Below, one piece after another: positions 11,377-43,971 of a stretch of 64,000 bases of DNA. Every line of letters starts with the position of its first letter. The first letter of the stretch is position 1. The notes under the pieces were generated by a model that ran no database searches, had not been told where the DNA came from, and was given only the letters and a program-made list of their open reading frames with translations. The position numbers and the translations under genes are program-made. Origin of the DNA: a virus; the IMG/VR virus record IMGVR_UViG_3300042305_000730, positions 32,979 through 96,978 of that record; one strand, written 5' to 3'.

Positions 11377-12858
11377 TTACGAGTAAGACCGAAGAATTGC
11401 CATCGCCATTGACTCATTGTCCTCAGAGATCAGATCGTTGCTCGTGCCCTCCAGCACGCCGATCATGACCTTATTCTTCGCCTCAATGAGCATGAGCATC
11501 TTCTCGTCCATCGTTGTCATGCCCTCAATGCCAGCAACCATGATGTGCGAAACAGTCTCACGGGTCTGCCCGAAACGATTGATGCGATCCTCCACTTGAA
11601 GCAGATCAGCCGATGTCCACGACAGTGAGCAGGACACATGGTGACGTGCGGAGTGGAGCGTGATGCCCGTACCGGCACTCTGCACGTTGCCAATCAGGAC
11701 ACGTGCATGCCCACTCTGGAATGCATCCACTGCTTCCATCTTTGCCTTGTCATTCATTCCACCTACGATGCGAACAGCGTTGTGGGATTCAGCGAAGTGG
11801 GCGAAATATGCATCGGCTTCATCCTTGAAGTTGGTGCTCATGAACACTTGCTCACCATCGTCCAGCAGATTCTCCACGTACTTGATCACAGGCTTCACTG
11901 AGCCCATCGCACAGATGTGGCGGAGTTCATTAATGCGAACTAATGCCTCAGCGAGCATCGCCTTCTGAGCACGTACTTCGCCTTTGGTATTGCGAATCCA
12001 TTCAATGAGATTCTCTTCGCATGCGATGTAGTTCGCAACACGCTTCTCATCCATCTCAATCGTGACTTGTGTACGCCCCTTATTCGGGAGTGTGAGCACT
12101 TCACTTCGCACACGGCGGATCATGAATGAGCCCGTGAGCAGATCATGCAGTTCTTTGACGTGAGCCGCACCACGACTTCCGAATGCATCAATCTTCGGTG
12201 CATAGCGGTTGATGAAACCATTGATGCCACCCTTGAAGGTTGCTCCACGATCCAGCATCTCTACGACTGGGAGTAATTCCATCGGATGAGCCACGAGCGG
12301 TGTTCCACTCATGGCAACACGGATTCCGGAGGTTGAGACTGTCTTGGCAATTTCAACGCACGCTTGACTACGTTTCGCACGCTTGCCACCCTTGATGCGC
12401 TGACACTCGTCCACGATGATTCCAGCAACGTTGTGCTTCAGTAAGTTCTTCCATCCAGCCAGTGATGCATCACCAATCAGCAACACATCTGCTTTGGGCA
12501 ATTCAGTGATTTTGTGCTTGACAGGATTTGTTCCAGTGATCGTATGGACACTCACTGTTGGTGAGAACTTTGCGAACTCACGAGCCCACTGCAAACGCAT
12601 GGACGGTGGTACGACAATCAACACTGGAGTCATGCCTGCGTTTACAGATGCTGTTGCGATGGCAATCGCAGTTGCTGTCTTACCAACGCCCTGCTCATCA
12701 GCGATCAACACGGTGCGATTGTCTAATGCAAATTGACAACCAGTCACTTGGTGATCTAACAGTGGTTGCGCGAGTGATGGCATTGACAATTTGGTTTTAG
12801 TGATTGGTGCATTCTTCATGAATTGCTGAAGATCTTGAAGTGCTTTTAACTGTGACAT
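11377..12858 (-). CDS. SNF2/DEAD-type helicase
   Basis: 493 residues from the ATG at 12858, chosen because GAAAGG lies 6 nt upstream; the longer frame would run into the upstream promoter. Motif I is ADEQGVGKT (about 53-61), motif II is a DECQ box in IIVDECQRIK, motif III is MSGTP, and motif VI is VEDRINRFGQT, the SNF2-type arginine-finger region. This is an ATP-driven DNA translocase, probably acting in replication, recombination or host DNA remodelling. A second SNF2 gene at 41514 sits in the replication operon. It is flanked by its own promoter and terminator. Confidence 0.85.
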   Translation of the reverse strand: MSQLKALQDLQQFMKNAPITKTKLSMPSLAQPLLDHQVTGCQFALDNRTVLIADEQGVGKTATAIAIATASVNAGMTPVLIVVPPSMRLQWAREFAKFSPTVSVHTITGTNPVKHKITELPKADVLLIGDASLAGWKNLLKHNVAGIIVDECQRIKGGKRAKRSQACVEIAKTVSTSGIRVAMSGTPLVAHPMELLPVVEMLDRGATFKGGINGFINRYAPKIDAFGSRGAAHVKELHDLLTGSFMIRRVRSEVLTLPNKGRTQVTIEMDEKRVANYIACEENLIEWIRNTKGEVRAQKAMLAEALVRINELRHICAMGSVKPVIKYVENLLDDGEQVFMSTNFKDEADAYFAHFAESHNAVRIVGGMNDKAKMEAVDAFQSGHARVLIGNVQSAGTGITLHSARHHVSCSLSWTSADLLQVEDRINRFGQTRETVSHIMVAGIEGMTTMDEKMLMLIEAKNKVMIGVLEGTSNDLISEDNESMAMAILRSYS

Positions 12859-12879
12859 GGTGAGCCTTTCATTGGTTGA

Positions 12880-12930
12880 ATAGATGGTGCTGATTCTATC
12901 GGTTTGGAATGGATTTGACGGGACATTACA
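12880..12930 (-). promoter_or_regulatory. Promoter region with TGTAATGTCC element
   Basis: On the minus strand TGTAATGTCC (12930-12921) is followed by ATTCCAAACCGATA, whose end overlaps a TAGAAT -10 candidate. The same two blocks occur at the same distance upstream of the gene at 14537. The start codon is about 60 nt further down, leaving a short leader that includes a 26-codon open frame beginning MSRQIHSKPIES. Confidence 0.45.
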
Positions 12931-12944
12931 ACCTTTTTTGGGCA

Positions 12945-12987
12945 ATAAAAAAGCCCCAGCACATCAGGGATTGATGCACTGGGGCTT
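12945..12987 (-). terminator. Rho-independent terminator
   Basis: AAGCCCCAG and CTGGGGCTT form the outer stem, CATCA/TGATG an inner stem, and the minus-strand transcript ends in TTTTTTATT. It terminates the gene at 13001-13834. Confidence 0.85.
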
Positions 12988-20290: not shown

Positions 20291-20740
20291 TTATTTAGAT
20301 TTTTCTCCAGCCTTGCCACGCACAGCCTTTTGTAAGAATCCGTGCTTCCTTGCAAGCATGACCCTCTTCGCTGATGTGCTCTTAGAGATCTTGAAGGCTT
20401 TAGCAATATTTGGAATTGGTGGTACACCGTAGTTACAGGACTCTTTATAGATTCGGGCAACTTCTTGCAACACATTCTCTGATAAAGCAGAGCCCCTGTA
20501 AGAGCCACTCTCTTCAGTAGTCAATACTGGCTTGTCCGTTACATTCTTCCTAGCATTTTTGACAAACTGCACAAGTGGAACTTTTCGGTATGTTTCAATT
20601 GTTATTGGTGAACCGTCCAATGAGGTGATGCTGACATAACTAAACACCAAGTGATCAGCCATCTTGTCTAAGCCGACAGTGACTTCATATTCAGTTTTAG
20701 AAATGGGATCTTTCCAAACTTCAGTGTGTAACTTCCTCAT
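20291..20740 (-). CDS. Putative DNA-binding protein with C-terminal HTH
   Basis: 149 residues. The C-terminal third, VPPIPNIAKAFKISKSTSAK followed by RVMLARKHGFL, has the shape of a helix-turn-helix in which I-x-x-I-A-x-x-F-x-[IV]-S-x-S-T-A is the recognition region. The N-terminal half is a beta sheet (EYEVTVGLDKMADHLVFSYV). It overlaps the WhiB-like gene by 4 nt, so it is probably a co-expressed transcription regulator. Confidence 0.6.
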   Translation of the reverse strand: MRKLHTEVWKDPISKTEYEVTVGLDKMADHLVFSYVSITSLDGSPITIETYRKVPLVQFVKNARKNVTDKPVLTTEESGSYRGSALSENVLQEVARIYKESCNYGVPPIPNIAKAFKISKSTSAKRVMLARKHGFLQKAVRGKAGEKSK

Positions 20741-21015
20741 GCAACCTTCTCTCTACGCAGGTTCCTACGCCCTCGGTTGGTAGTCCCACCCCAAATACCA
20801 ACTGCATGATTGTCTAACGCATATTGCAGACAACTTTGCTTTACTGAGCAGACATTACAGAAGTTTTCAATGACTGCTTTGTAATTGTGTGTGGAGCCAA
20901 ACTCAATAAAGAAGTTATTGACATCGGAGCCAACGCAAGCCCCAAGTTTCATCCATTTGGGATCTTCACGAAGAACTTCTCTGTAGTTGTGTCCACCATC
21001 AATCAAATCCGTCAT
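20737..21015 (-). CDS. whiB: WhiB-family iron-sulfur transcription regulator
   Basis: 92 residues from ATG 21015 (GGAGGAAG 6 nt upstream; the frame extends further but overlaps the upstream gene). Cysteines follow the WhiB order: C in KLGACVGSD, then FCNVCSVKQSC (C-x2-C-x5-C), then the beta-turn GIWGG and a basic tail RGRRNLRREKV. WhiB proteins bind a 4Fe-4S cluster and the host sigma factor to tune transcription, and occur only in Actinobacteria and their phages. The 4-nt overlaps place it in an operon with an HTH protein. Confidence 0.9.
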   Translation of the reverse strand: MTDLIDGGHNYREVLREDPKWMKLGACVGSDVNNFFIEFGSTHNYKAVIENFCNVCSVKQSCLQYALDNHAVGIWGGTTNRGRRNLRREKVA

Positions 21016-21344
21016 TGTGCTTCCTCCATCTGCCAAAACCCAAACAATGCTCCGTCTGAGTCTGACGCACCAAACGTGCAACCTTCGGGAGAGATTGCAT
21101 CCATCACGTTGTATAGGTGCTGAAGCAAAAATGATTCTTGCTCATAATCCCGTTCCGCATTTGGATTGATCATATTGAAAAGAACATCTTCCCAATCTTC
21201 TAAAATTGAATCCTTGATTTTGTTATCGTGCTCACCAATTACTGAGAGGAATACTTTTGCCAAATCCTCGTTACGGAGTGTTCCCTCACTAACAACTTGG
21301 TTTACCCAAGTGTCTGCAAGAGGTTGGATATTCTCATACGACAT
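21012..21344 (-). CDS. Hypothetical protein (110 aa)
   Basis: The ATG at 21344 has AAGGAG 7 nt upstream. The product begins MSYENIQPLADTWVNQVVSE, is largely helical with acidic segments and ends DGALFGFWQMEEAQ. No family recognised. It overlaps the WhiB start by 4 nt. Confidence 0.5.
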   Translation of the reverse strand: MSYENIQPLADTWVNQVVSEGTLRNEDLAKVFLSVIGEHDNKIKDSILEDWEDVLFNMINPNAERDYEQESFLLQHLYNVMDAISPEGCTFGASDSDGALFGFWQMEEAQ

Positions 21345-22180: not shown

Positions 22181-22591
22181 TTAGGCTCTCAGCAACCTCT
22201 GTAGCATAATTTTTAGATCTCCCAAGTCCTTACTGCTCTTGGGAATTACGCTGATGTCAATATTTTTATTTATATTGTTGTGTGCATCAACACATTCGGA
22301 GCAATTACAACCTTGTCTGTATCGTGTAACAGTTCCATGTGCTGCAAAGTTTGTAACCTTATTTACCTTCTGTAACGGCGTTCTTTCTTGTGGTGTTAAA
22401 CCACCCCACATACCGTAAGTTTCATTTATTCCTATTTCTTTGCATTCTTTCCAAACTGGACAGACATTACAGACATTTTTAGCAATCGCGTAATACAGTT
22501 CAGGGTTGGGAGCATCAAATGGAGGAAACCATATATCTCCCGCACGATTTTTACATGCGGATTCGGACATCCAATCGGGAGGGGTTTTCAT
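22181..22591 (-). CDS. whiB: WhiB-like regulator fused to a CxC zinc-knuckle domain
   Basis: 136 residues. The N-terminal domain has WhiB cysteines (SACKNRAGD, VCNVCPVWKEC) and the YGMWGG turn with ERTPLQK behind it. A C-terminal extension, HGTVTRYRQGCNCSECVDAH, is a second Cys motif (H-G-T-x-x-R-Y-x-x-G-C-x-C-x2-C) frequent in actinophage proteins. The fusion distinguishes it from the compact WhiB at 20737. It is likely a DNA-associated regulator of host transcription. Confidence 0.85.
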   Translation of the reverse strand: MKTPPDWMSESACKNRAGDIWFPPFDAPNPELYYAIAKNVCNVCPVWKECKEIGINETYGMWGGLTPQERTPLQKVNKVTNFAAHGTVTRYRQGCNCSECVDAHNNINKNIDISVIPKSSKDLGDLKIMLQRLLRA

Positions 22592-23658: not shown

Positions 23659-25095
23659 TCAAGTGTCTTCAGACAAATCTAGGACATCTTGGTACATGGT
23701 GTTGGCTTGCTGGGGATTTAAGCCACCACTAGCCAGTTGCCTAGACACATCACCAGCATTTTGCCCAAACAAGCGACTGAGTACGCCACTGCTACCTCTG
23801 GCTTCTACTTCCAAGCGAACCATGTCCCTAGTGTCACTTATGTCCTTGAACTTTTCAACAAGGTTAAACAGACGCTCCACTTCTCCTGAAAGTGCTGGGT
23901 CAAGACCCTGTCCTTCTAGTTCTTCAGCGAAGCGAGCGAAGAGTACACGACTTACTTGCATCTCCAATAATGCCCTCAATGCTGCCTGTAACTGATCCTT
24001 AGTTTTGATCTCTACAGGTAACTTAAATCCACACTCAGAATCTTGTCGGAATGCAGGACAACGTGCGCTGAGATAGCAACTATTGCATTGGCGCAAAAGT
24101 CCACTTTTATACGAGATTACAGGAACCTTTTCAACACCTAAACTTTCAATATCTTCTTCACCAGCAAGGGTTTTAGCCAATTGTGGGGTGAATTGTTCAA
24201 TACCTATGACAGGTAGCAATACTTTGTCATCTTCGTGCCGCATCTCAGCACCCCGGATAGCAATAGTTGACCCCCTCGGTGCCACATTTGGAACAGAAGC
24301 AGGATTGCTCGGATAGTTGATATCCGTGACACTTTCCGATAGACCAATTTCTTGCTCATCGTCCATTTCTTGAGGCTCATAGACCCCAAAAACAACCTTC
24401 TCCCACGCTTGCCAAGAAACAATTGCAAGCCTCGCAACCTCAGAGTTGTCATCCTGAATGATTGCATCGTAATCAATCCCTAACTTAAGGATGTCTGCTC
24501 GGTGCTTCTTTCGGGACGAATCCTTTTGTTGGGCGGGGTATCGGCGTAAGCCATGACCGTCCCAAATCTGAGTTTCCCCATACCTAACTGCTGATGTCCA
24601 TGAGCCAACAATTACCGAATCCCACGGCAACGCTGCAATAACATCGGGCTTAGAAGATAAGCCTATTAACTTGGCATCCCAACGCTGAATCAAGTTCCTA
24701 ATGCGAGAAATGGTCTTACCATTTACTGCCTTGTCACTAATTGCTGCCCTTCCATGCTTTTGGCAAAGCCAAGCAAGGCGTTCCATATCATTAGGGTCAT
24801 TCCATACAGGGATGTACCGCTCTCCCAGCCAAGTACCGTCATAATCGGGTCTCCCAATGACCATTGCAATGTTTTCGTAGTGCTGGCGCACGAAATCGTC
24901 GTATCTACTGACATCCTCATCATTTTCAGATGTGTACAGAATGATCTCTCCCGATGGGAACATTACAGACAAATCCAATTCCTTTTTCTTAGGAATGGGC
25001 AGGTGAGTAAGGTTTACAGCGTACTTCGTAACTCCCGATGCCTGTAATAACGACCTGTGGGATGCCTTTTCAGCATTGGCAAAATATACCTTCAC
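23659..25095 (-). CDS. Two-domain phage protein: TIM-barrel/TGT-like N-terminus and four-cysteine C-terminal domain
   Basis: 478 residues. N-terminal MKVYFANAEKASHRSLLQAS, then WDAKLIGLSSKPDVIAALPW and DSVIVGSWTSAVRYGETQIW, resemble a barrel related to tRNA-guanine transglycosylases (pattern G-x-x-S...P-x-x-S-V-x-x-x-S-W). The catalytic Asp residues of that family are not obvious. From about 345 a C-x2-C-x4-C-P-x7-C cluster (QCNSCYLSARCPAFRQDSEC) could bind zinc or Fe-S, followed by a helical region containing QVSRVLFARFAEELEGQGLD. Function not established; related proteins seem common in actinophages. Confidence 0.5.
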   Translation of the reverse strand: MKVYFANAEKASHRSLLQASGVTKYAVNLTHLPIPKKKELDLSVMFPSGEIILYTSENDEDVSRYDDFVRQHYENIAMVIGRPDYDGTWLGERYIPVWNDPNDMERLAWLCQKHGRAAISDKAVNGKTISRIRNLIQRWDAKLIGLSSKPDVIAALPWDSVIVGSWTSAVRYGETQIWDGHGLRRYPAQQKDSSRKKHRADILKLGIDYDAIIQDDNSEVARLAIVSWQAWEKVVFGVYEPQEMDDEQEIGLSESVTDINYPSNPASVPNVAPRGSTIAIRGAEMRHEDDKVLLPVIGIEQFTPQLAKTLAGEEDIESLGVEKVPVISYKSGLLRQCNSCYLSARCPAFRQDSECGFKLPVEIKTKDQLQAALRALLEMQVSRVLFARFAEELEGQGLDPALSGEVERLFNLVEKFKDISDTRDMVRLEVEARGSSGVLSRLFGQNAGDVSRQLASGGLNPQQANTMYQDVLDLSEDT

Positions 25096-30926: not shown

Positions 30927-31427
30927 TTATCTCCAAGTAGGGCGAAGAGAACTAAGTTTGGCACGGCGTTCAGCATCAATGTATTCAGCATTCTGACGCT
31001 CATCTACACGAGGGATACCTTTAGGCCCTACTTTGCCATCATTAGTCAAGACAACTGGGGCTGCTCCAGGAGGGGCGAACTTCTGACCACGGGATTCATA
31101 AGCAATACCAGTCCAAAGATTGAACTCATCGGGCCAAATATAGTCTCCTGCGTTAATGCGCTCACCCTTGTGTACACCACGTGAGTATTGGCGAGCATTC
31201 ATTCTGCTCAATGAACCCAAAATCTTGTCTTGTCTACGATTAGAAGACATTGTTCCAAGATAACCATCAGGATGGGCCGATTCTGGGGTAGAACGGTATC
31301 CAGCAAGTTGGTAATCTTTGTTATTGCGGAATACAGGGGCAGGACCAAACTGGGGCTGTGAACCTGCGCTAGGTGGTTCTGAAGGTGAATTCCAGTTATT
31401 AAAAGAGGTTTGAGAAGATCCAGCCAC
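30927..31427 (-). CDS. Hypothetical Pro/Ser-rich protein (166 aa), late virion cluster
   Basis: GTG start in a TAGTG junction. The N-terminus is low-complexity (SSQTSFNNWNSPSEPPSAGS), followed by a more structured GYLGTMSSNRRQDKILGSLS and RINAGDYIWPDEFNLWTGIA. No family recognised. Confidence 0.5.
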   Translation of the reverse strand: MAGSSQTSFNNWNSPSEPPSAGSQPQFGPAPVFRNNKDYQLAGYRSTPESAHPDGYLGTMSSNRRQDKILGSLSRMNARQYSRGVHKGERINAGDYIWPDEFNLWTGIAYESRGQKFAPPGAAPVVLTNDGKVGPKGIPRVDERQNAEYIDAERRAKLSSLRPTWR

Positions 31428-32455: not shown

Positions 32456-33028
32456 TTAGTAGCCTCCCTTTATCCGTTTGCGGTTTTTGCTTTGGCGATA
32501 CGCTTGTTCACCCTTAGCACCACCTGCAAGGTATGACGATTCACTACCAGATGGTGTTTCCGCAAAGGAATCACCGTCTTTAAGACCAAGCATTTTGTTA
32601 TTTCCCATGCGCTTTGTTTCTGCTGCTTTAGCAATATCAAACGATTGTCCTGCGGCTTTTGACTCAGCCATTACTTTAGGGCTGTTTACACTCTTCAAAG
32701 CCTTTGCAGTCTTCTTCTTATCTTTAAGAATTGACTTACCTTCTGGGGATGAAGGCTCATGGTATGTGGTGTACTCAGCACCAATTTTAATATTAGGTTT
32801 TTTTGGACCCATTGCATCGCCGCCACTTGGGTTGACATACCCAGAGTGTGGTCCTGATGCAGATGCAGCATCACGGTCTACACGGCGCTGAGTCATCGCC
32901 TGTGTAGTGTTTTGGCTGTCGTCACGAACTGTGTGAGTATCTGGCTTTGCACCTACTCGTGGCTTAAGTTGCCCACTGTTAGCGTAAGGAACAATACTGT
33001 TTACCTTGTCACGATTAAACCAGCCCAT
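32456..33028 (-). CDS. Disordered hypothetical protein (190 aa), late virion cluster
   Basis: MGWFNRDKVNSIVPYANSGQ, then Asp/Arg/Ser-rich low-complexity sequence, a Lys-rich SILKDKKKTAKALKSVNSPK and a basic end (SKNRKRIKGGY). SD GAGG at 8 nt. No recognised family. Confidence 0.5.
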   Translation of the reverse strand: MGWFNRDKVNSIVPYANSGQLKPRVGAKPDTHTVRDDSQNTTQAMTQRRVDRDAASASGPHSGYVNPSGGDAMGPKKPNIKIGAEYTTYHEPSSPEGKSILKDKKKTAKALKSVNSPKVMAESKAAGQSFDIAKAAETKRMGNNKMLGLKDGDSFAETPSGSESSYLAGGAKGEQAYRQSKNRKRIKGGY

Positions 33029-33031
33029 TGT

Positions 33032-33322
33032 TTACCTCACTACGGGTTTGAAGGATATAGCGGAGATACTCTCTCCATTCTCACCAATAATATCATCAAA
33101 GCCAATGACAAAAGACAAGTCAATTCCCCGTGGGGCGACAAAACCTCTTGCAATTGCACAGGCTTTGGCGGCTTGGTTTACAGCACTAGCGCCAATAGCC
33201 CTAATTTTAGGTAAGTGACCTGCCACGACCGATCTGGCAAGGATAGAACCAACACTTTGGGGGTTGCTTGATCCTGAGACTTTAAGGACATCATCTACTT
33301 TTGTGTTCAGTTCTTGAGACAT
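33032..33322 (-). CDS. spoVS: SpoVS-like (Alba-fold) nucleic-acid-binding protein
   Basis: 96 residues. VLKVSGSSNPQSVGSILARS, then IRAIGASAVNQAAKACAIAR and GFVAPRGIDLSFVIGF, match the SpoVS family (stage V sporulation protein S) almost position for position: L-K-V-S-x-x-S-N-P-x-S-V, I-x-A-I-G-A-x-A-V-N-Q-A-x-K-A-x-A-I-A-R-G. SpoVS is an Alba-like RNA/DNA-binding protein of Bacillus and other lineages. Here it heads the small-protein cluster with SD AGGAG. The role in a phage is unknown; binding of phage or host RNA/DNA is likely. Confidence 0.85.
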   Translation of the reverse strand: MSQELNTKVDDVLKVSGSSNPQSVGSILARSVVAGHLPKIRAIGASAVNQAAKACAIARGFVAPRGIDLSFVIGFDDIIGENGESISAISFKPVVR

Positions 33323-33364
33323 TTTGACTCCTAGTTAGGTAAACAGATGTCTCAATAATATCAT

Positions 33365-33730
33365 TTATGCATAACCAGCGCCGTGGAGCAAATCAAGCAT
33401 GTCCTCTAGTCGCATTACAGCATAAGAATCACCTACAGCAGCAGCGCCTTTTCCAGGGCGCTTTACCACCAGCAATGGAACACCCATATGCAGTTTCTCA
33501 GCCTGATGAACGGTGTCATTCAACCATTCACTCAATTTAAACGCTTTTTGGTTCTTGGCTTGAATAGCAACTTCAGACAAAGTAAGCCTTTGAACTACTC
33601 CATGGATGTCCCCAGCATCATTTTCCCCAGCAAGAGCGGTTCTCCTTGCATTCTTAAAACCTTGTTCTTTGAGGTAATTAACTAGTAATGTCTCAAAAGT
33701 AGTGCCTTTGGCTTTATGTTTGTTTCCCAT
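33365..33730 (-). CDS. PD-(D/E)XK endonuclease / Holliday-junction-resolvase-like
   Basis: 121 residues from ATG 33730 (the longer frame runs into the upstream gene). KGTTFETLLVNYLKEQGF, then ENDAGDIHGV and EVAIQAKNQKAFKLSEWL, give E...GD...(E/Q)xK, the core of a PD-(D/E)XK nuclease as in Hjc-type resolvases; the usual E of the ExK element is Q in this reading (I-Q-A-K). It lies next to recombination genes and could resolve branched replication intermediates. Confidence 0.6.
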   Translation of the reverse strand: MGNKHKAKGTTFETLLVNYLKEQGFKNARRTALAGENDAGDIHGVVQRLTLSEVAIQAKNQKAFKLSEWLNDTVHQAEKLHMGVPLLVVKRPGKGAAAVGDSYAVMRLEDMLDLLHGAGYA

Positions 33731-33732
33731 AT

Positions 33733-34011
33733 TTAGATAAATTCCAAGGGCATTACAATGATTGGAGTACGCTCGCCAACCCATGCGCCAAGGCAATTGT
33801 AACTAATGTACTCATCTGCCTCTTCCACGGTCATACCATCCCTGTTGACGCATACTTCCATCATCTTGTCCCATGAGTAAACAGCCAGTAAGGGTTCGTT
33901 AATGCGTTGCGAAAAACCAATCAAGGCTTCATCAAAGCCAGTCATCAGCAAAGCGTCTTCGCCCATTGCTTCTAAAGCCTCGTCAATACGCTCTCGTAGT
34001 GTTGAGTCCAT
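33733..34011 (-). CDS. Hypothetical acidic phage protein (92 aa)
   Basis: DALLMTGFDEALIGFSQRIN, SWDKMMEVCVNRDGMTVEEA and EYISYNCLGAWVGERTPIIV follow a pattern common in phages (a D-x-A-[IL]-[IV]-G-F segment, then M-T-x-E-E-A-x-E-x-x-x-x-N). No biochemical role is known to me. One-base junction with the upstream gene. Confidence 0.6.
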   Translation of the reverse strand: MDSTLRERIDEALEAMGEDALLMTGFDEALIGFSQRINEPLLAVYSWDKMMEVCVNRDGMTVEEADEYISYNCLGAWVGERTPIIVMPLEFI

Positions 34012-34487
34012 TAGGGCATAAACCTATGCTGGCGAAGTTCTTTACCTGACATACCAATACGGCGTGACAACTCACGAGAAACTACTTGAGCGCCACGTTC
34101 ACAGCGATCAAACACTGTGTCTACAAGTTTGCGGTAAGCACGTTTCTGCATATGAATTTCTATTTGATGGGTAATCCTGCTATCAACATCTCGTTTTGCT
34201 TTAGCAACCGTGACTAGGTCGCCTTTAGCCTTGTCACCCCATTGCTCAATCAACACGTTTGATTGAAGGTACTCAAGGATATTGCGTTCACGTTCTTCTG
34301 TAATCTCCGCTTGGACCAACTGTGCCTTTGCGTAAACCAACCACGCCATGAAATCCGTGTACAACTCCATTAGATCGGAATCACCAATGTCTCCGATATT
34401 ACGAGGTAGTTCAGGAAGAACTCCGCTTGGTTTTTTTGGTAACGGAAAGTTTTGAAGAAACAAATCCATCTCGGGTGTCTGTGTCAT
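34011..34487 (-). CDS. Hypothetical helical phage protein (158 aa)
   Basis: The ATG at 34487 is chosen for GAGGA 8 nt upstream; it overlaps the end of the exonuclease gene by 77 nt. Residues include IGDIGDSDLMELYTDFMAWL and TVAKAKRDVDSRITHQIEIH. Probably all-helical and DNA-associated by context (recombination operon). No family recognised. Confidence 0.5.
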   Translation of the reverse strand: MTQTPEMDLFLQNFPLPKKPSGVLPELPRNIGDIGDSDLMELYTDFMAWLVYAKAQLVQAEITEERERNILEYLQSNVLIEQWGDKAKGDLVTVAKAKRDVDSRITHQIEIHMQKRAYRKLVDTVFDRCERGAQVVSRELSRRIGMSGKELRQHRFMP

Positions 34488-35364
34488 TACTGTCATCCTC
34501 ACTTCTCCAACATGTATTTTTATAAGAACAGAACTTGCAACCAAATGCTGACGAAGACTCAGCCCACATCGGTCTCATTGGGGGAATGTCTTGCTTTAAT
34601 GCTGCCATCAATCGTTTGCAGTTGTCAAGCATGGGTTGAACTAATTCAGGGGTAAACCCAACAACAAACTCTTTTACTTCTTGTGTAGGTTTCCATTCAT
34701 ACAAGAAGACCATCTCATGTACTCCCGTGCAATACATGTAAAGCAATCCCTGTTTGATATGGCTTGGGAAAGGTTGTCTAATTTTCTTCCACAAGCCATC
34801 TAAAGTCAAGTTACCTTTTTGGTAATCTTTAAACAGATCTGGCGCTTCAAACCGAACCGTACCCAAACCAATAGACTTAATTTCAATCAATGCACGGCCT
34901 TTAGCGTCATTGATAATCCCATCAGCGTGACCAAGAATCATGTGCTCTTCGTTGCTTAATGGTATTTCACGGTAAATAGGTTGAGCAGTAATACAGATTG
35001 GGCAAAATTGTGGGCTAACTCCCTCCCACTCATGTCTGCATCTGGCGTTAGAGCATTGCCAAAGCCCCTCCAACACTCCAGCATGGTTTAGCCATCCTTG
35101 CCACTTTGCATGAATGTAGTGACCTTCTGCAAACACATTAAGACGTTGAAAGGAAAAACTCTCAGGGTCTTTTGGGTGGTCTCTGATGGTGTACCAGTTA
35201 GCCCGAGGGCACCAATCACGCTTGGCTAATTCACTTGGGTGAATGTGGGCAGTGTCTCTAGTACTTTCACGAGCAGCAGTATCTTTAAGAATTTGTACGG
35301 CTACTGTAGGTAGAACACGACCATTCATGGTGAGCATTTTTAAATAGTCATTACGCTCACCCAT
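34411..35364 (-). CDS. Cas4/RecB-type PD-(D/E)XK exonuclease
   Basis: 317 residues. GHADGI followed by ALIEIKSIG supplies the D...E-x-K nuclease core. A first Cys (KRDWCPRANWY) and a C-terminal GCKFCSYKNTCW resemble the four-cysteine Fe-S cluster of Cas4/AddB-type enzymes. Between them is a zinc-ribbon-like insertion (WQCSNARCRHEW, QFCPIC). The protein probably acts as a single-strand DNA exonuclease in recombination with the RecA-like gene. The C-terminal 25 residues overlap the next gene. Confidence 0.8.
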   Translation of the reverse strand: MGERNDYLKMLTMNGRVLPTVAVQILKDTAARESTRDTAHIHPSELAKRDWCPRANWYTIRDHPKDPESFSFQRLNVFAEGHYIHAKWQGWLNHAGVLEGLWQCSNARCRHEWEGVSPQFCPICITAQPIYREIPLSNEEHMILGHADGIINDAKGRALIEIKSIGLGTVRFEAPDLFKDYQKGNLTLDGLWKKIRQPFPSHIKQGLLYMYCTGVHEMVFLYEWKPTQEVKEFVVGFTPELVQPMLDNCKRLMAALKQDIPPMRPMWAESSSAFGCKFCSYKNTCWRSEDDSNDTDTRDGFVSSKLSVTKKTKRSSS

Positions 35365-35515
35365 ACTTATCCCACTTTTTAGTCTTAAATTCTTGCTTTA
35401 GATTGACCTGCATAGCATGTTGGTAATACTCTTTAGCACGAAGCACGTCTATTAAACGGTTTTTGTGATAGTTCTCTGCAAGACGTAGGCACTCTGCTAA
35501 CTGTGTGTTATTCAC
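35357..35515 (-). CDS. Small helical basic protein (52 aa)
   Basis: GTG 35515 to TGA 35357, overlapping both neighbours by 8 nt. The product starts MNNTQLAECLRLAENYHKNR and ends KQEFKTKKWDKYG. Helical, function unknown, likely co-translated with the nucleases. Confidence 0.5.
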   Translation of the reverse strand: MNNTQLAECLRLAENYHKNRLIDVLRAKEYYQHAMQVNLKQEFKTKKWDKYG

Positions 35516-35843
35516 CAATCATCTCCAAAAAGTCGTCCTCAGTGAGGATTACATAATTTCTATTAGCAAGGTCAAACTGTAAAATAGGAACCCGTTCTTC
35601 AGCAATTGCTCGTAAACGTAATTCCCTTAAATCTAATTCTTTAATTGTAATCGTCTTCATGTTCTCTGTCAACTTATTTTCAATAAGAAAGTCATGGCTT
35701 CTTACGTCATTCTTACGAAGCCAACCAGCACCTGACCGAGCATTACGAGAACCATTGTAGAGTTTTGCCGAACGCTTTTCTTGCTTTACGGATTTCTTTA
35801 GTATTTTCTTTTGACGATCAGGGTCTTGACCAATTGTGGTCAC
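35508..35843 (-). CDS. Putative small PD-(D/E)XK resolvase-like protein
   Basis: 111 residues. NARSGAGWLRKNDVRSHDFL followed by IENKLTENMKTITIKELDLR fits a small phage nuclease family with S-G-A-x-W...K-x-D-V-x-x-x-x-F-L-I-E-x-K-x-T, giving D...E-x-K. It would cut branched or mismatched DNA. Tightly coupled to the RecA-like gene (4-nt overlap). Confidence 0.6.
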   Translation of the reverse strand: MTTIGQDPDRQKKILKKSVKQEKRSAKLYNGSRNARSGAGWLRKNDVRSHDFLIENKLTENMKTITIKELDLRELRLRAIAEERVPILQFDLANRNYVILTEDDFLEMIGE

Positions 35844-36862
35844 CTTGCAACTCCGTAATGCTTCTCAACTTTAGCAATCAAATCTTTCTGCATGCCAAGG
35901 TCTTCACGGAATGCATCAAGCATCTTGTCCTTACCTTGCCAACGACCTTCACCAAATGAGTAGTAAGCGCCAGCACGGGTAATGACCTCAATGGCAATGC
36001 CAATGTTCAGCATGTCCTTAAGGGTGTCATAGTCACCCTTTTCAAATCCTTGTGTTTGGGCAAAGTAAAAGTCAATAACTGCACTCTGGTTAGGGCGATA
36101 AGTCTTGTTCTTAAGCGTGCGAGCCTTAATAGTTTGACCTACAACTTCGTCCTTATCCTTTAACCACTCATCACGCTTAACTTCAACACGAGTAAAGTAT
36201 GCAAAGTTCTTTGCTAGACCACCTGGAGTAGTACGTGGATCGCCCCACATAACACCAATCTTCTGCCTCCACTGGTTAATCATTAAGCCAGTACATACAC
36301 GCTCATCAACAACCAAAGAGCGCTTCTGTGCCTCTGAGGATTTGCGAAAGAACTTAGAGGTAAGGCGAGCACCTAGACCAACAGTAAACTCTTCCATTGT
36401 CTTTTCTGATTCATCCCCAGGAACTAACGCTGGAAGGGAGTCAATAACAATAAGGTCTACCGCACGATTAGCCATAACCCTAATCACAAGGTTGTATGCC
36501 TGCTCCATGATGTTAGTTTCAACAATCCACATGCGCTCTAGGTCAACACCAATTGACTCTGCATACTCAGGGACAAACTCCTCAGCAGCAATCCATAGAC
36601 AAATAAACTCAGGATTTAGTTTTTGATTTTCTGCAATGGTCTTAAACGCAAGAGCAGTTTTACCAGAGGACTCTTCACCAATGATCTCACTCCACTGGTT
36701 TACGGGCCAGCCGCCACCAAGCATAAGGTCATATGACAAGATGCCAGTAGACAACCTCTCTAGTTTTCCACGGGTATCACTACCCTTAACAATTGTCCCT
36801 AATCCGTACTGCTTGTTGACTGAGTTGACAATTGAAGAAAGGCTATCCCAATTTGTGTCCAT
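35840..36862 (-). CDS. recA: RecA/UvsX-type recombinase
   Basis: 340 residues from ATG 36862 (AGGAG 8 nt upstream; the longer frame invades the upstream gene). Walker A is GEESSGKT (62-69), Walker B lies in VDLIVIDSLPALVPG, and NQWRQKIGVMWGDPRTTPGG followed by LAKNFAYFTRVEVKRDEWL matches the L2/C-terminal core of RecA. It mediates strand exchange and recombination-dependent replication. Surrounded by nuclease genes in the replication operon. Confidence 0.9.
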   Translation of the reverse strand: MDTNWDSLSSIVNSVNKQYGLGTIVKGSDTRGKLERLSTGILSYDLMLGGGWPVNQWSEIIGEESSGKTALAFKTIAENQKLNPEFICLWIAAEEFVPEYAESIGVDLERMWIVETNIMEQAYNLVIRVMANRAVDLIVIDSLPALVPGDESEKTMEEFTVGLGARLTSKFFRKSSEAQKRSLVVDERVCTGLMINQWRQKIGVMWGDPRTTPGGLAKNFAYFTRVEVKRDEWLKDKDEVVGQTIKARTLKNKTYRPNQSAVIDFYFAQTQGFEKGDYDTLKDMLNIGIAIEVITRAGAYYSFGEGRWQGKDKMLDAFREDLGMQKDLIAKVEKHYGVAR

Positions 36863-36875
36863 GTATTTCTCCTGT

Positions 36876-37244
36876 TCATGCTGACCAAGATATTTGATCC
36901 GCTTGTTCGTATAGTCCGTTCCAGCCACACTCAAAGCATCTCGGTGCAGGTACGTTACCACCTGCCGATGCATTTGCACGACTAAACACGTTTTTACTTC
37001 CACATCTTGGGCAAGACAAACCACCATCTAAACGTTGTGCTTCCCCACCCTTCCATGAGCGTAAAGCCGTACCCATGTCAACTTTTCCATCAGCATCGGG
37101 AACAGGTCTTGCTTGCTCTGATGCTTGAACTATTGCACGAGCCTGTTGTTGTAGTGCTGGCAAAATATGATTAGGTGTAGTCGGCACCGCAGGTCTACGT
37201 TCTACTGTTTTATTGTTTAACTTGTTGTCCCACCAACTAGCCAT
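36876..37244 (-). CDS. Zinc-ribbon protein (122 aa)
   Basis: MASWWDNKLNNKTVERRPAV is followed by a disordered region and GLSCPRCGSKNVFSR...APRCFECGWNGLY, a C-x2-C-G...C-x2-C-G zinc ribbon. Such proteins accompany recA/polA clusters in actinophages. Possible single-strand DNA or replisome adaptor. Overlaps the upstream gene by 8 nt. Confidence 0.6.
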   Translation of the reverse strand: MASWWDNKLNNKTVERRPAVPTTPNHILPALQQQARAIVQASEQARPVPDADGKVDMGTALRSWKGGEAQRLDGGLSCPRCGSKNVFSRANASAGGNVPAPRCFECGWNGLYEQADQISWSA

Positions 37245-37623
37245 CGTAATCCATCTCCTCTTCCCAATCTAAAAAACTGTCAGGTGATATTAAAGCAATA
37301 ACATTGTTCTCTAGCAACTTTTGAACAAGAGCCATCCCATATGACAGCAATACTGTCTTTGATCCGTCAACCATCCTAGTACTAGGTTTCTCATCTTCAC
37401 CCATGGTAACTTCTAAAACTTCTGTAAACCAATTAACTGCTTCTTCAACCTCATCGTACACACCAAAATCATGTAAAACATCCCATTGGGAGTTAATTAA
37501 TTCGGATTCCATGTCCTGTACTTCTTTGGATGGTGGGGTAAGCCCCATATGTTGGGCCAGTTCTTGACCAGATGGTAATGAGAGCATTAAACAAAAGTTT
37601 CGTTTTTCACCGACAGATCTCAT
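37237..37623 (-). CDS. Hypothetical protein coupled to DNA polymerase (128 aa)
   Basis: The ATG at 37623 overlaps the polymerase stop (ATGA) with GGAGG 9 nt upstream. SLPSGQELAQHMGLTPPSKE, EVLEVTMGEDEKPSTRMVDG and YGMALVQKLLENNVIALISP form a helical acidic protein. No family recognised. Confidence 0.55.
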   Translation of the reverse strand: MRSVGEKRNFCLMLSLPSGQELAQHMGLTPPSKEVQDMESELINSQWDVLHDFGVYDEVEEAVNWFTEVLEVTMGEDEKPSTRMVDGSKTVLLSYGMALVQKLLENNVIALISPDSFLDWEEEMDYDG

Positions 37624-39671
37624 TTTCCTTTTGCCTCCGACCAACTAGTTGCTGCATGACAGGACACTTTAAGTGTTACTCCCATAATACTCCTGCCATG
37701 CCCCATTGCAGAAACTAGCGTCTGCATTGCAGACTCTTCTTCTTCTTTAGGAGCAATAACCACAAGTTCGTCATGTACCTGTACCAGCATCTTGACATTG
37801 GTACCACTAAACGCTGCGTCCACGTCAATCATAGCCTGTTTACAAATGTCTGCGGCACTTCCTTGAATAATGGCGTTGATGGCTTGACGTTGGGCACGAG
37901 AAACATCAAACTGCCTAGTCAAGTTAAGACCAGGAAGCCTCCTACGCCTACCACTCAAGGTAGATACGTAGCCTGCCTTTGTACCTAAAGCAATGGCAAC
38001 TTGCTTCCACTTGGTTAGGCCAGAGAAACTCTTATAGTAAGCGTTGAGAATCTCTTCAGCATGTTCATCAGAGATGCCTGTCGTCCTAGCCAGTTTTGCA
38101 GAGCCACCACCATAGGCAGTAAGGAAGTTCACACCCTTACCAATCTGGCGCTCCTCTGAAGTTACTTCTGACAAATCTTTCCTAAAGACTGCTGCCGCTG
38201 TAGCGGCGTGAATGTCCTCATTGTTTTTAAAAATGCGAAGTAACTGGGGGTCTTGACTAAACATCGCCATAACACGCAACTCAATTTGATCGTAGTCAGC
38301 AACTAACATGGTGTATCCCTCAGGCGGAACAAACAACCCTCGGATGCTGGAGTCACGTGGAATGTTCTGCAAGTTTGGGTCATTGGATGACAACCTACCT
38401 GTAGCAGTTCGGTGCAGGTTATAGGAGGGGTGCAACTTCCCGTTATTTAGTTTAGGGATCAAACCATCAACGTAAGTAGATTTTAACTTCTGTAGTTCAG
38501 AATATGAAAGCAGTAAGGGAACCAAAGGGTGATCCTCTCGTAACTTCTCTAGGGCTTCCATGTCTACGGATGGTGCACCTTTAGGTGTTTTCTTGTGGGG
38601 CTTCAAACCTAAACCACCATCACGCTTTTTGTTAAACAAGTACTGTTGCTTGTCTTTATTGGAGTCAGGGTTAAACCCTGCGTAGGACATATCAGTAATT
38701 TCAAGCAAGCAATCACGTTGTTTAATCTCTAAATCTTTACGAAGGTCTTTGAGGGCACTGGTCTTTACCGTGATTCCCTCATCTTCCATGTTCATAATTA
38801 CCCGCAAAACTTCCATATCTTGTTTAAGTGCTGGCAAAATAGATTCTGAGAGGCGCAACTTAGCCTTCAATTTGGTATACAGCAACCAAGTCCAACGAGC
38901 ATCCAAATGCACGTAACGAGCCGCTTTATCAAAGGGAACCGTATCAATAACAGATCCTAACTTGCCTTCTTTTGCGTAAGCATCATGCCCATCAAAGTTA
39001 CGCATAATTAGTTTCTTCAATGAAAACTCAGGGACATTCTCATCTTCAAGGTGTTGGAGAATCATTGTGTCCATGTATGGACCTGGTGGTAGTTCTCCGT
39101 AGTACTTCTTAATAGAGCGAGCATCAAACTTTACGTTATGTCCTACCTTGATGAGGTCGCTAAAGAAAATTGGGCGCAACGCCTCAAAGACCTCTGAACG
39201 AGACAGTTGTGGTGGTGCAGGCGAATATTCTCCAGGAATGACGTACTTAGCCTTAGCCATAGACTCGTTGCCGTTTTCTAGCAACTTACGATAACCAGTT
39301 GGTGGAATGGTTGTACCATCGCCCCGTTGTTCAGGAACAATAATGTCTCCTAATTTGTGGCCCATTGGTATTGCCCATGAGTGCCCTGCCGTAGCAATGC
39401 TGATCCAAAACACCTCATTACGAAGAGGGTCTAGGGCTAAGTCTTTTAAGTACCTAGAACGAATTGTTTCCGTTGAACTAGCAATTATGGCGCTCCCTGG
39501 GTTCTTGAGAGTTGCAATGTGTTCCTTACACTCTTTTTCAAAAAGTTTAAGAAAATCATCATGCCTCTCAAGAACCCCACGGGATTCCACGTCAAAAGCA
39601 AACTCTCCTGCTTTTGTTACTACTTCTACAAGGGTTGTCAACTGCTCTACGGTGTGCACCGTATGACGCAT
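37620..39671 (-). CDS. polA: Family A DNA polymerase with 3-5 exonuclease domain
   Basis: 683 residues. The N-terminal exonuclease shows FDVES (26-30), KVGHNVKFDAR (175-185) and YVHLDARWTW (253-262), the Exo I-III acidic residues. The polymerase domain has TATGRLSSNDPNLQNIP (422-438), motif A VADYDQIELR (457-466), motif B RQIGKGVNFLTAYG (508-521) and motif C VHDELV (632-637). There is no 5-nuclease domain. The residue equivalent to E. coli Phe762 is Phe (516). It is the replicative polymerase of the phage. Confidence 0.95.
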   Translation of the reverse strand: MRHTVHTVEQLTTLVEVVTKAGEFAFDVESRGVLERHDDFLKLFEKECKEHIATLKNPGSAIIASSTETIRSRYLKDLALDPLRNEVFWISIATAGHSWAIPMGHKLGDIIVPEQRGDGTTIPPTGYRKLLENGNESMAKAKYVIPGEYSPAPPQLSRSEVFEALRPIFFSDLIKVGHNVKFDARSIKKYYGELPPGPYMDTMILQHLEDENVPEFSLKKLIMRNFDGHDAYAKEGKLGSVIDTVPFDKAARYVHLDARWTWLLYTKLKAKLRLSESILPALKQDMEVLRVIMNMEDEGITVKTSALKDLRKDLEIKQRDCLLEITDMSYAGFNPDSNKDKQQYLFNKKRDGGLGLKPHKKTPKGAPSVDMEALEKLREDHPLVPLLLSYSELQKLKSTYVDGLIPKLNNGKLHPSYNLHRTATGRLSSNDPNLQNIPRDSSIRGLFVPPEGYTMLVADYDQIELRVMAMFSQDPQLLRIFKNNEDIHAATAAAVFRKDLSEVTSEERQIGKGVNFLTAYGGGSAKLARTTGISDEHAEEILNAYYKSFSGLTKWKQVAIALGTKAGYVSTLSGRRRRLPGLNLTRQFDVSRAQRQAINAIIQGSAADICKQAMIDVDAAFSGTNVKMLVQVHDELVVIAPKEEEESAMQTLVSAMGHGRSIMGVTLKVSCHAATSWSEAKGK

Positions 39672-41513: not shown

Positions 41514-43058
41514 TTATACCTCCTTGTGTCGTAGGAACTCTGAAAGAGCGCCTAAGTTTAATTGAAAACTTCCCTTATTATCATAACCACCATCAATAAA
41601 TGCTTTATTGATTCCTCGTTTTTCCTGCAACATTTCGTATTGCCTCTCTTCAATGCTACCTTTCATAACGAAGGAGACCACATTAACGTGTGGAAACTCA
41701 GATGACAACCTAATGATTCTGGCTTCTCGTTGGTCTAGTTTGCCAGCACTCCATGGAAGGTCATAGGAGATAAGGTAATTGGCAATTGGTAGGTCAACAC
41801 CATAGCCACCTGCATCTGAGGAAAGAAATAGCCTGGTGTTTGGGTCGGTGGAAAACTCTTGTTTAGCCTTATCCCTATCCATCATGTCCATACCCCCCAT
41901 AAATAGAACACTACGGGTGGTTGCTTTAGTTGCTTCTTGAATAAGGCGCAAATTGTTTTTAAAGAAAGAAAACAAAACAACTTTGTTCTTAGGATTTTCT
42001 TCTAAGACATCTGTAATGTACTGAACTACTGCATCAAGTTTAGGAGTATTAAAGTTATCTTGGATCAACCCTTGTGCTACTACTTGTGAAGCATGCTTGC
42101 TGCCTTGAGTGTTGCCGTCATCTAAGTACATTTCTGCAGACAACTTTACAAGCGCTGGGTTATCACAGAACATACGTAGAGTAGTTAGGCGAGACATAAT
42201 ATCTCCCTGTGCTTCCATGTTTTTATTGTTGCCATAGTAGTGGGCCCATAAATCAAAACCACGACCATGCTCAGTCATTGCTTTTTGAATAGCAGTCAAT
42301 AGGTCTTCTGCTAATTTTCGGTAAGTTATTGCACCAAAGGAATCAAAAGGAACTGGAACTACTTGCTGAATTACTACAGGTAATTGGTCAGCAATATCCT
42401 CACGAGTTTTACGGATCATTACATTTTCCATGCTGGTGTGCAATGACTTTAAATTTCTGTATCGTTTTGGTTTACCAAAGTGGTCACGCTCAATGAATGT
42501 CCTGTCAAACACTTCAAACTTTCCAAGGATAGTTGGGTCAACAAATTCCATAATAGAGAACAACTCTTCTGGGCGGTTCTCAATTGGCTGTCCTGTTAGT
42601 GCAAACCTATAGTGGTATTTCTTCCCAAGGCGTTTGATTAGCCGTGAGCGTTTTGCTCTTGGTGTTTTAATCATGGTTGCTTCATCTACAACAATTGCAT
42701 CAAACTTATGCTTTTCGTAGGAAGCAATGTCATTGGCAAGAGACTCAGGGTTGACAATAACGTACTGAGCACTTATGGCTGTTCTCCATAGTTTCTTCCT
42801 TGCAGCAATACCACCGTCAATAACAACACACGATGAGTCTGTAAACTTCTCAATCTCTCGTTTCCATTGGTACTTCAAAGAAGACGGTACGACAATAAGT
42901 GTTTTACAAACCTCACCCATCACTTGCAAATTTTCAATAGTTGCAATCGTAGTGATAGTCTTACCAGCACCCATCACAAGGGCCAAGAGCATTTGACCAC
43001 GGTCAACCATCTGTTCCGTGGCTTCTTCTTGAAAGGGGTATAACTTGCCCTTAAACAT
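41514..43058 (-). CDS. SNF2-family DNA helicase / translocase
   Basis: 514 residues from the ATG at 43058, which overlaps the primase stop; a TTG three nt earlier is also possible. Motif I is MGAGKT (29-34), motif II IVVDEATMIK, motif III ALTGQP, and the second RecA lobe ends in AGKLDQREARIIRLSSEFPH. SNF2 helicases of this size are common in phage replication operons and may remodel DNA or assist fork restart. It complements a second SNF2 gene at 11377. Confidence 0.9.
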   Translation of the reverse strand: MFKGKLYPFQEEATEQMVDRGQMLLALVMGAGKTITTIATIENLQVMGEVCKTLIVVPSSLKYQWKREIEKFTDSSCVVIDGGIAARKKLWRTAISAQYVIVNPESLANDIASYEKHKFDAIVVDEATMIKTPRAKRSRLIKRLGKKYHYRFALTGQPIENRPEELFSIMEFVDPTILGKFEVFDRTFIERDHFGKPKRYRNLKSLHTSMENVMIRKTREDIADQLPVVIQQVVPVPFDSFGAITYRKLAEDLLTAIQKAMTEHGRGFDLWAHYYGNNKNMEAQGDIMSRLTTLRMFCDNPALVKLSAEMYLDDGNTQGSKHASQVVAQGLIQDNFNTPKLDAVVQYITDVLEENPKNKVVLFSFFKNNLRLIQEATKATTRSVLFMGGMDMMDRDKAKQEFSTDPNTRLFLSSDAGGYGVDLPIANYLISYDLPWSAGKLDQREARIIRLSSEFPHVNVVSFVMKGSIEERQYEMLQEKRGINKAFIDGGYDNKGSFQLNLGALSEFLRHKEV

Positions 43059-43971
43059 CAAGCCACCAGGGGAATACTGAGGCTTGGCTAACTGCTGTAA
43101 TTATTTGTGCGTGTGTCATTTCACCGATATCTTTTGCGTCCGTGTGTGCGTAGTGTAACCAGTTTACACCATGCCTGAATGCAGGTAACGCTTTTTGTAG
43201 TTTTTGGGCTGCAGAAATACCAGCAGAATCATTATCTAAAGCAATAATTAAACCGTCAAAGTGCTCTACAAGTAACCGTATCTGTTGTTTACTGATGTGA
43301 GCACCATAGGAAGCGACACCACACACCCCAGAAACTACCGTAGCCAAACGTGCTGCATCCAAAGGTGACTCTACAAGTACACCAATCGTGCAATCTGCCT
43401 TATCAATACCAAACAATGTTTCAGACTTCTTTACACCGATGGGATAATTACGAACCTGTGATGGTTGTTTTTCTTGCCAACCCAACAACTCCCCCATAGG
43501 TGACACGATAGGTAAAATCCAAGCCTGCTTACCTTCATCAAACCTAATGCCATATTTTCGTGCCGAATCTCGGTCAATGCCCCGTGTGAACAACCACTCG
43601 TCTGAAGGTGCAGGGAAAGAACTAAAAGACTTCCAATCAACTGTTGGCTTCTTTTCAAGGGGTGCAGTTGAGTTGAGCCTTTCTAAACCCTTAGCCACAA
43701 TAAAGGAGTGCACAGCAACAATAGAGTCAGACTCCCCAGTCAACTCAGAAACAAGCGAAGACAATGTCCCCTTAGCGCCACAGGAATAACACAACCATAA
43801 ACCTGTGTGGGCATTCATAGACCACGAGGGTGATGCATCCTCCTTACCAACACGATTAAAGTGCACTGGGCAACGTGCAGAAATTTCGTTCTCACCGATA
43901 CGCCGAACGTCCACACCTAAGTGCTGTAGCACATGTGCTACGTCAGTAATACCAGTTGTCTCGGTCATCAT
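43051..43971 (-). CDS. DnaG-type primase (CHC2 zinc finger and Toprim)
   Basis: About 306 residues from ATG 43971 (adjacent ATG at 43968; GGGGAT upstream). CPVHFNR (34-40) and LCYSCGAKG (60-68) form the CHC2-like zinc finger. The Toprim core is seen as VLVESPLDAARL and LIIALDNDSAG, supplying the Glu and the D-x-D that bind catalytic metals. It overlaps the helicase gene by 29 nt. It makes RNA primers for the fork; no helicase domain is fused, unlike T7 gp4. Confidence 0.85.
   Translation of the reverse strand: MMTETTGITDVAHVLQHLGVDVRRIGENEISARCPVHFNRVGKEDASPSWSMNAHTGLWLCYSCGAKGTLSSLVSELTGESDSIVAVHSFIVAKGLERLNSTAPLEKKPTVDWKSFSSFPAPSDEWLFTRGIDRDSARKYGIRFDEGKQAWILPIVSPMGELLGWQEKQPSQVRNYPIGVKKSETLFGIDKADCTIGVLVESPLDAARLATVVSGVCGVASYGAHISKQQIRLLVEHFDGLIIALDNDSAGISAAQKLQKALPAFRHGVNWLHYAHTDAKDIGEMTHAQIITAVSQASVFPWWLDV

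Follow-up and report, generated by a model that had tools for sequence, protein, structure and literature searches.

A SpoVS family protein with a predicted Alba-like fold is a constrained core gene of an actinophage lineage and carries a covarying hairpin at its translation start

SpoVS acts on septation and sporulation in Bacillus (PMC8510167), and its membership of the Alba superfamily is established (PMC11621453). SpoVS is widespread, yet in the literature that we searched, no biochemical function was found reported for a SpoVS protein, and its mentions in papers on B. subtilis sRNAs hold nothing on mechanism. Published accounts of viral contigs treat the gene as an auxiliary one related to sporulation (PMC6172770, PMC8940887); those virome genes belong to the same family as the one described here, but are read there as a sporulation gene and here as a core phage gene. 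SpoVS is also annotated in the records of the phages BRock, TS-12, and LysYB1, and its occurrence in a phage is not new in itself. Closest to the gene studied here are the homologues of Streptomyces phage BRock (gp51; Borockvirus), Alone3, LuckySocke, GiJojo, and pSt2308 (hereafter, the BRock group), which are 44% identical to it, belong to the same lineage, and share its place in an order of RecA, resolvase, Cas4, resolvase, and SpoVS. They differ in that the upstream resolvase is RuvC-like, the leader is another one, and the annotation reads only “sporulation protein” (as for BRock gp51) or “hypothetical.” Stenotrophomonas phage TS-12 and the Lysinibacillus phages LysYB1/2 have a phage SpoVS too, but in other gene neighborhoods and among the cellular copies. 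An actinophage clade of SpoVS, its status as a core gene, its linkage to resolvases, and a leader hairpin were not found in the literature searched.

We analyzed a stretch of 64 kb (“the window”) from a 96,978-base IMG/VR record, whose features are collected in Table 1. A preliminary description of this DNA had claimed a match to SpoVS over nearly the full length of one open reading frame and had suggested a profile search and a phylogeny. The profile search recovered SpoVS: The Pfam family PF04232 (curated cut-off, 24 bits) matched the window protein with 73 bits (E = 1.7e-20) over profile positions 1 to 81 of 83, and a match above the cut-off was likewise obtained for its relatives. PHROG 35646, “sporulation protein,” matched as well (E = 1e-16), and so did the T. 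thermophilus SpoVS structure 2eh1, with E = 6e-11 when the sequence was searched alone and 1.6e-31 when the family profile was used. The reading frame, with an ATG start preceded by a GGAG-type Shine-Dalgarno sequence, is a genuine gene, well outside what chance would produce; its coordinates had been given exactly, while its strand (minus) had gone unstated.

Table 1. Features of the window discussed in the text, by position on the 64-kb stretch.
Feature	Coordinates	Strand	Evidence or remark
WhiB family protein (host-lineage marker)	20737-21081	minus	Pfam Whib, E 1e-13
Second WhiB family protein	22181-22591	minus	Pfam Whib, E 1e-13
166-aa conserved protein, downstream block	30927-31427	minus	BRock gp48 homologue
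Fast-evolving 190-aa protein, next gene after SpoVS (3-nt gap)	32456-33028	minus	Median identity 28%
SpoVS/Alba-fold protein (fold predicted), 96 aa	33032-33322 (stop codon counted)	minus	PF04232, AlphaFold2, Foldseek
RNA hairpin over SpoVS start	33314-33355	minus	9-bp inverted repeat TTGAGACAT...ATGTCTCAA
Predicted PDDEXK (Hjc/Mrr-like) Holliday-junction-type nuclease, directly upstream of SpoVS	33365-33730	minus	Pfam Mrr_cat, PHROG 244
92-aa protein, recombination block	33733-34011	minus	PHROG 13182
177-aa protein, recombination block	34011-34544	minus	Cluster 9
Cas4-like exonuclease	34411-35364	minus	PHROGs 2506 and 1990; BRock/Alone3 counterparts annotated exonuclease/Cas4
Second Holliday junction resolvase	35508-35843	minus	PHROG 2002; syntenic in BRock and Alone3
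RecA/UvsX-like recombinase	35840-37027	minus	Pfam RecA, E 1e-54; nearest isolates BRock group
Family A DNA polymerase	37620-39671	minus	Nearest isolates BRock group
Tail sheath protein	60213-61757	minus	Indicates myophage; used for SpoVS-blind sampling

The preliminary description had also called the protein Alba-like, and as far as the fold is concerned, the structural model agrees. An AlphaFold2 model built with 60 relatives reached a pLDDT of 90.6, with elements in the order b-a-b-a-b-b, and Foldseek placed it closest to the B. subtilis SpoVS model 9a7h (TMt 0.92) and to 2eh1 (0.89), with rmsd values of 1.2 to 1.4 and 2ek0 also among the first matches. Next after the SpoVS entries came archaeal Alba proteins at a TM of about 0.55 to 0.68 (probability 1.0), and the fold matches also included the protein-RNA complex 3wbm and Rpp20/Rpp25. 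On this model, the window protein has an Alba-like fold. A profile search of solved structures with the phage family recovered SpoVS alone, Alba being reached by fold only. Archaeal Alba proteins (Sso10b, Mth10b, and P. horikoshii Alba) accordingly resemble phage SpoVS in fold and in being small, basic, single-domain proteins, but share only 12 to 22% identity with it and no sequence-profile match, and for the phage protein, nucleic-acid binding and dimerization are predictions from fold and charge.

The source had been described as an actinophage, which is well supported because RecA, PolA, tail sheath, and SpoVS all find their closest isolated counterparts among Streptomyces myophages of the BRock group, and because WhiB occurs in 31 of 33 related virus records, with two copies in the record of the window. 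Among 14 control genomes, a match to WhiB was obtained only in Corynebacterium glutamicum, and in that one actinobacterial genome no SpoVS was found. For SpoVS only, phages TS-12 and LysYB1 scored similarly to the BRock group, over shorter stretches. The window furthermore contains the myophage genes for tail sheath, baseplate wedge, and hub, and by its shared core genes, their order, and the WhiB marker, this phage belongs with the BRock-type actinomyophages.

In the suggested phylogeny, the actinophage copies did come out as a clade. One branch, with support of 100/99, separated 37 actinophage rows from 30 cellular and other-phage rows, in an unrooted tree of 89 columns that has some long end branches and in which Deinococcota, Thermotogota, and most Actinomycetota are absent. 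The SpoVS proteins of TS-12 (standing beside a Bacillus sp.) and LysYB1 fell among the cellular rows, and with this position and their other gene neighborhoods, they are taken as captures separate from the actinophage clade. Phage SpoVS and the B. subtilis and T. thermophilus proteins (9a7h, 2eh1, 2ek0) share family, fold, and the core [RQ]A[IV]GA.A[VLI]NQA.KA.AIA. They differ at position 41, which is Arg in 73 of 73 actinophage rows and Gln in 91 of 92 others, and further in Gly74 for Ala, in Ile86-Ser87 for Arg-Thr, and in one residue inserted near position 83. Phage SpoVS also has a 10-residue N-terminal tail and is more basic (median pI 9.1 to 9.5, versus 6.8 for cellular SpoVS), with a modest net charge of about +2.

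We found close relatives of the window SpoVS in at least 176 IMG/VR stretches, and a second set, around BRock gp51, in 104. In a SpoVS-blind sample, i.e., records collected by their tail sheath alone, exactly one SpoVS was present in 10 of 10 records over 50 kb, and the six sheath-selected records without it were fragments of 31 to 44 kb. Across these records, the median identity was 84% for SpoVS versus 53% for the sheath, with SpoVS higher in 54 of 55 pairs. In a separate comparison of 191 pairs, many of them near dS saturation, the median dN/dS of SpoVS was 0.083. Throughout the actinophage lineage, SpoVS is a core gene under strong constraint. An earlier comparison at SpoVS-selected loci, by which SpoVS was more conserved than RecA, was set aside as biased sampling, and the sheath-selected test was used instead. 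We also considered and rejected a host-derived auxiliary (moron) gene: Neither patchy presence nor a close host homologue was found, the gene occurring in all ten sheath-selected records over 50 kb and forming its own clade.

The surroundings of SpoVS were found to be ordered as well. From RecA to the gp48 homologue, freshwater and Streptomyces phages have a common gene order, which runs RecA, Holliday junction resolvase, (WhiB), Cas4-type exonuclease, further genes, junction nuclease, SpoVS, small proteins, and gp48 homologue; in contrast to its cellular counterparts, SpoVS is here a virus core gene beside recombination nucleases. The nuclease gene next to it probably starts at ATG 33730 rather than TTG 33796, since the N-terminal extension from the TTG is missing in relatives. 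It shows conserved residues E13, D41, and Q57-x-K59, and its model has archaeal Hjc/Hje as the top Foldseek matches (probability 0.99 to 1.0, but E only 2.5e-3 and a TM of about 0.5); from the catalytic residues of a PDDEXK enzyme and the modeled Hjc-like fold, we predict a Holliday junction resolvase. A Holliday-junction-type nuclease lies immediately before SpoVS in 158 of 159 testable loci, the counts being 144 for the PDDEXK type, 8 for the RuvC-like type, and 6 for endonuclease VII, and in the 159th (L190) a RuvC-like gene lies three small ORFs away. At least three unrelated folds have thus occupied the slot of the junction nuclease, with SpoVS retained throughout. In many aquatic relatives (L205-L212, L218-L221, L230, L239, and L242), a P-loop protein resembling deoxynucleoside monophosphate kinase lies just before the PDDEXK nuclease.

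The genes upstream of SpoVS overlap or nearly touch, and the 31 to 160 nt before SpoVS form a true gap, after which SpoVS opens a new gene block, as had been claimed, that runs toward small basic proteins. The preliminary description had placed SpoVS between recombination genes and virion proteins. Its recombination side held, and on the other side there is indeed a block of small proteins rich in Gly, Ser, and basic residues, but their identity as virion proteins is putative: No family match was obtained for the 190-aa, the 166-aa, or the other small proteins of the downstream block. In BRock, the block that SpoVS opens runs toward cell-wall hydrolases and lysis. In one subgroup (L073-L077 and L081), a very large ORF of up to 1062 aa, shortened in others, replaces the small proteins behind SpoVS. 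Of 84 cellular spoVS loci, 60 have rny, which encodes RNase Y, nearby, and 21 have recA. Most of the Bacillota loci (L086-L165) have rny beside spoVS, and a Collinsella record has spoVS beside rny, followed by miaB/miaA.

A further difference from cellular SpoVS is a structured mRNA start. In the window, an inverted repeat forms a hairpin that holds the start codon in its 3' arm and the Shine-Dalgarno sequence AGGAG (33328-33332) in its loop. Its counterpart at another locus (L003), TTGGGACA...TGTCCCAA, contains an A-T to G-C exchange that is compensated across the stem, and other loci have the repeats AAGGTAC...GTACCTT, GGGAAC...GTTCCC, and TGGAAC...GTTCCA. The mean folding z at 42 distinct SpoVS starts was -1.83, with 67% below -1.5, compared to means of -0.75 to +0.61 at the starts of 18 other gene families from the same loci. 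Swapping the 5' arm between loci lowered the complementarity (z = 5.0, reached in 0 of 5000 swaps), whereas 14 control families gave values of -2.3 to +2.0. In an aligned subset of 11 sequences, both partners vary in three of the six base pairs, no shuffle in 500 reached the covariation score, and sliding the partner destroyed it; of the two tests, the arm swap is the cleaner one, because the structure of the subset was picked by eye from the same sequences. The case for the hairpin rests on the family, because the window's own hairpin is unexceptional (z -0.9; of 200 shuffles, 35 were equally stable). Hairpins of the second phage group take in the Shine-Dalgarno sequence, and their covariation is weaker (p = 0.01). 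We rejected the hairpin as an ancient spoVS feature, cellular spoVS leaders being unstructured (mean z 0.20). A search of Rfam at the hairpin gave no match, and the SpoVS region of the window showed no excess of promoters. In soil BRock-like phages (L167-L170), a terminator-like GGCTCTTTT and a TATAAT-like box stand about 20 to 75 nt ahead of SpoVS, suggestive of a new transcript beginning at this point.

Our preferred reading, to which we give about an even chance, is that phage SpoVS is a virus-adapted Alba-fold nucleic-acid-binding protein of late infection, translationally controlled and linked to recombination and DNA maturation. That it binds nucleic acid is suggested by its Alba fold, its shift toward a basic pI, and where its gene lies in the genome. 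A small, basic, and probably dimeric protein, it would act on nucleic acid of the phage itself, beginning at the stage when DNA is recombined and matured. There it may coat branched or newly replicated DNA, or hold it, as the neighboring resolvase trims junctions before packaging. Compaction or protection of nucleic acid and regulation of host RNA, which the preliminary description had proposed, are putative roles. In addition or instead, it may bind phage mRNA, with DNA slightly favored over RNA as the ligand. The hairpin, by closing over the Shine-Dalgarno sequence and/or the start codon, would gate its synthesis, probably through autogenous feedback or through coupling to translation of the upstream nuclease. 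Because SpoVS is a fixed core gene beside recombination enzymes and has a conserved start hairpin, it probably serves the virus as a functional nucleic-acid-binding component rather than as an acquired sporulation gene. Against this reading, the order beside the resolvase could be no more than the mark of an operon boundary, and the frequent proximity of cellular spoVS to rny points to RNA rather than DNA. The modest net charge, the unexceptional hairpin of the window itself, the weaker covariation in the second phage group, and downstream genes without an assigned function also count against it.

The same proximity to RNase Y, together with RNA binders among the Alba relatives (the 3wbm complex and the Rpp20/Rpp25 fold matches) and a translation start that is structured and covarying at SpoVS alone among the gene starts tested, would fit a protein that is chiefly an RNA-binding regulator, repressing itself at the hairpin and modulating the stability or translation of phage or host mRNAs. 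We hold this to be unlikely, if a serious contender: Between subgroups, the hairpins differ in both sequence and geometry, and no one protein-binding motif is proven; a structured start codon fits translational coupling as well, and the order beside recombination nucleases points to DNA. It seems unlikely that, in analogy to the T4 gene 32 protein, SpoVS would be both an RNA-binding autoregulator that represses itself at its own covarying hairpin and a DNA/RNA chaperone; if true, this would be the first defined molecular function of a SpoVS protein and would provide an autogenous operator for the Alba superfamily. The hairpin could also sit at the operon boundary solely as an element of translational coupling or of transcription, such as a weak terminator or an RNA processing site, unlinked to any binding by SpoVS. 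We regard this as possible, though short of an even chance; it concerns the hairpin only and is compatible with any reading of SpoVS function. In one subgroup, its 5' arm reaches into the end of the resolvase gene, and the soil relatives have the terminator-like and TATAAT-like motifs, yet most freshwater sequences have no U-run, the stem closes on the Shine-Dalgarno sequence or the start codon, and no terminator-like site was found on the minus strand at this place in the window. Autogenous control is attractive as a reading of the hairpin, but translational coupling to the upstream nuclease is at least as likely.

Two other roles were considered. It is improbable that the protein is a virion or DNA-packaging component, made late and packaged with the genome or condensing it. 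The resolvase endonuclease VII of T4 does its work at packaging, and the block opened by SpoVS leads toward small basic proteins and, in BRock, toward hydrolases and lysis, but the low net charge and the downstream neighbors without a family match speak against such a role. Most improbable, in our view, is an auxiliary “sporulation” gene by which the phage would steer sporulation, septation, or dormancy of its host, as suggested by the published virome readings (PMC6172770, PMC8940887), by the effect of SpoVS on septation and sporulation in Bacillus (PMC8510167), and by the WhiB genes that these phages also carry. A host-sporulation role is unlikely because SpoVS is a single-copy core gene that exceeds the tail sheath in conservation, keeps a fixed place in the recombination block, and groups apart from the Bacillota copies; BRock, moreover, has been described as a virulent myovirus (PMC7453282), and the sole actinobacterial control genome is without SpoVS. 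The actinophage SpoVS argues against reading viral “sporulation genes” as viral steering of host sporulation. A core SpoVS tied to recombination nucleases, a cultivated lytic phage (BRock) on Streptomyces, and a testable RNA element together offer a direct route to the function of SpoVS proteins.

Elsewhere in the window, we observed a gene at 23659-25095 (minus strand) that resembles queuine tRNA-ribosyltransferase (PHROG 887; no Pfam match) and is syntenic with a BRock gene so annotated, as well as two separate SNF2-type helicases in this one phage genome, at 11377-12945 and 41514-43061 (minus strand).
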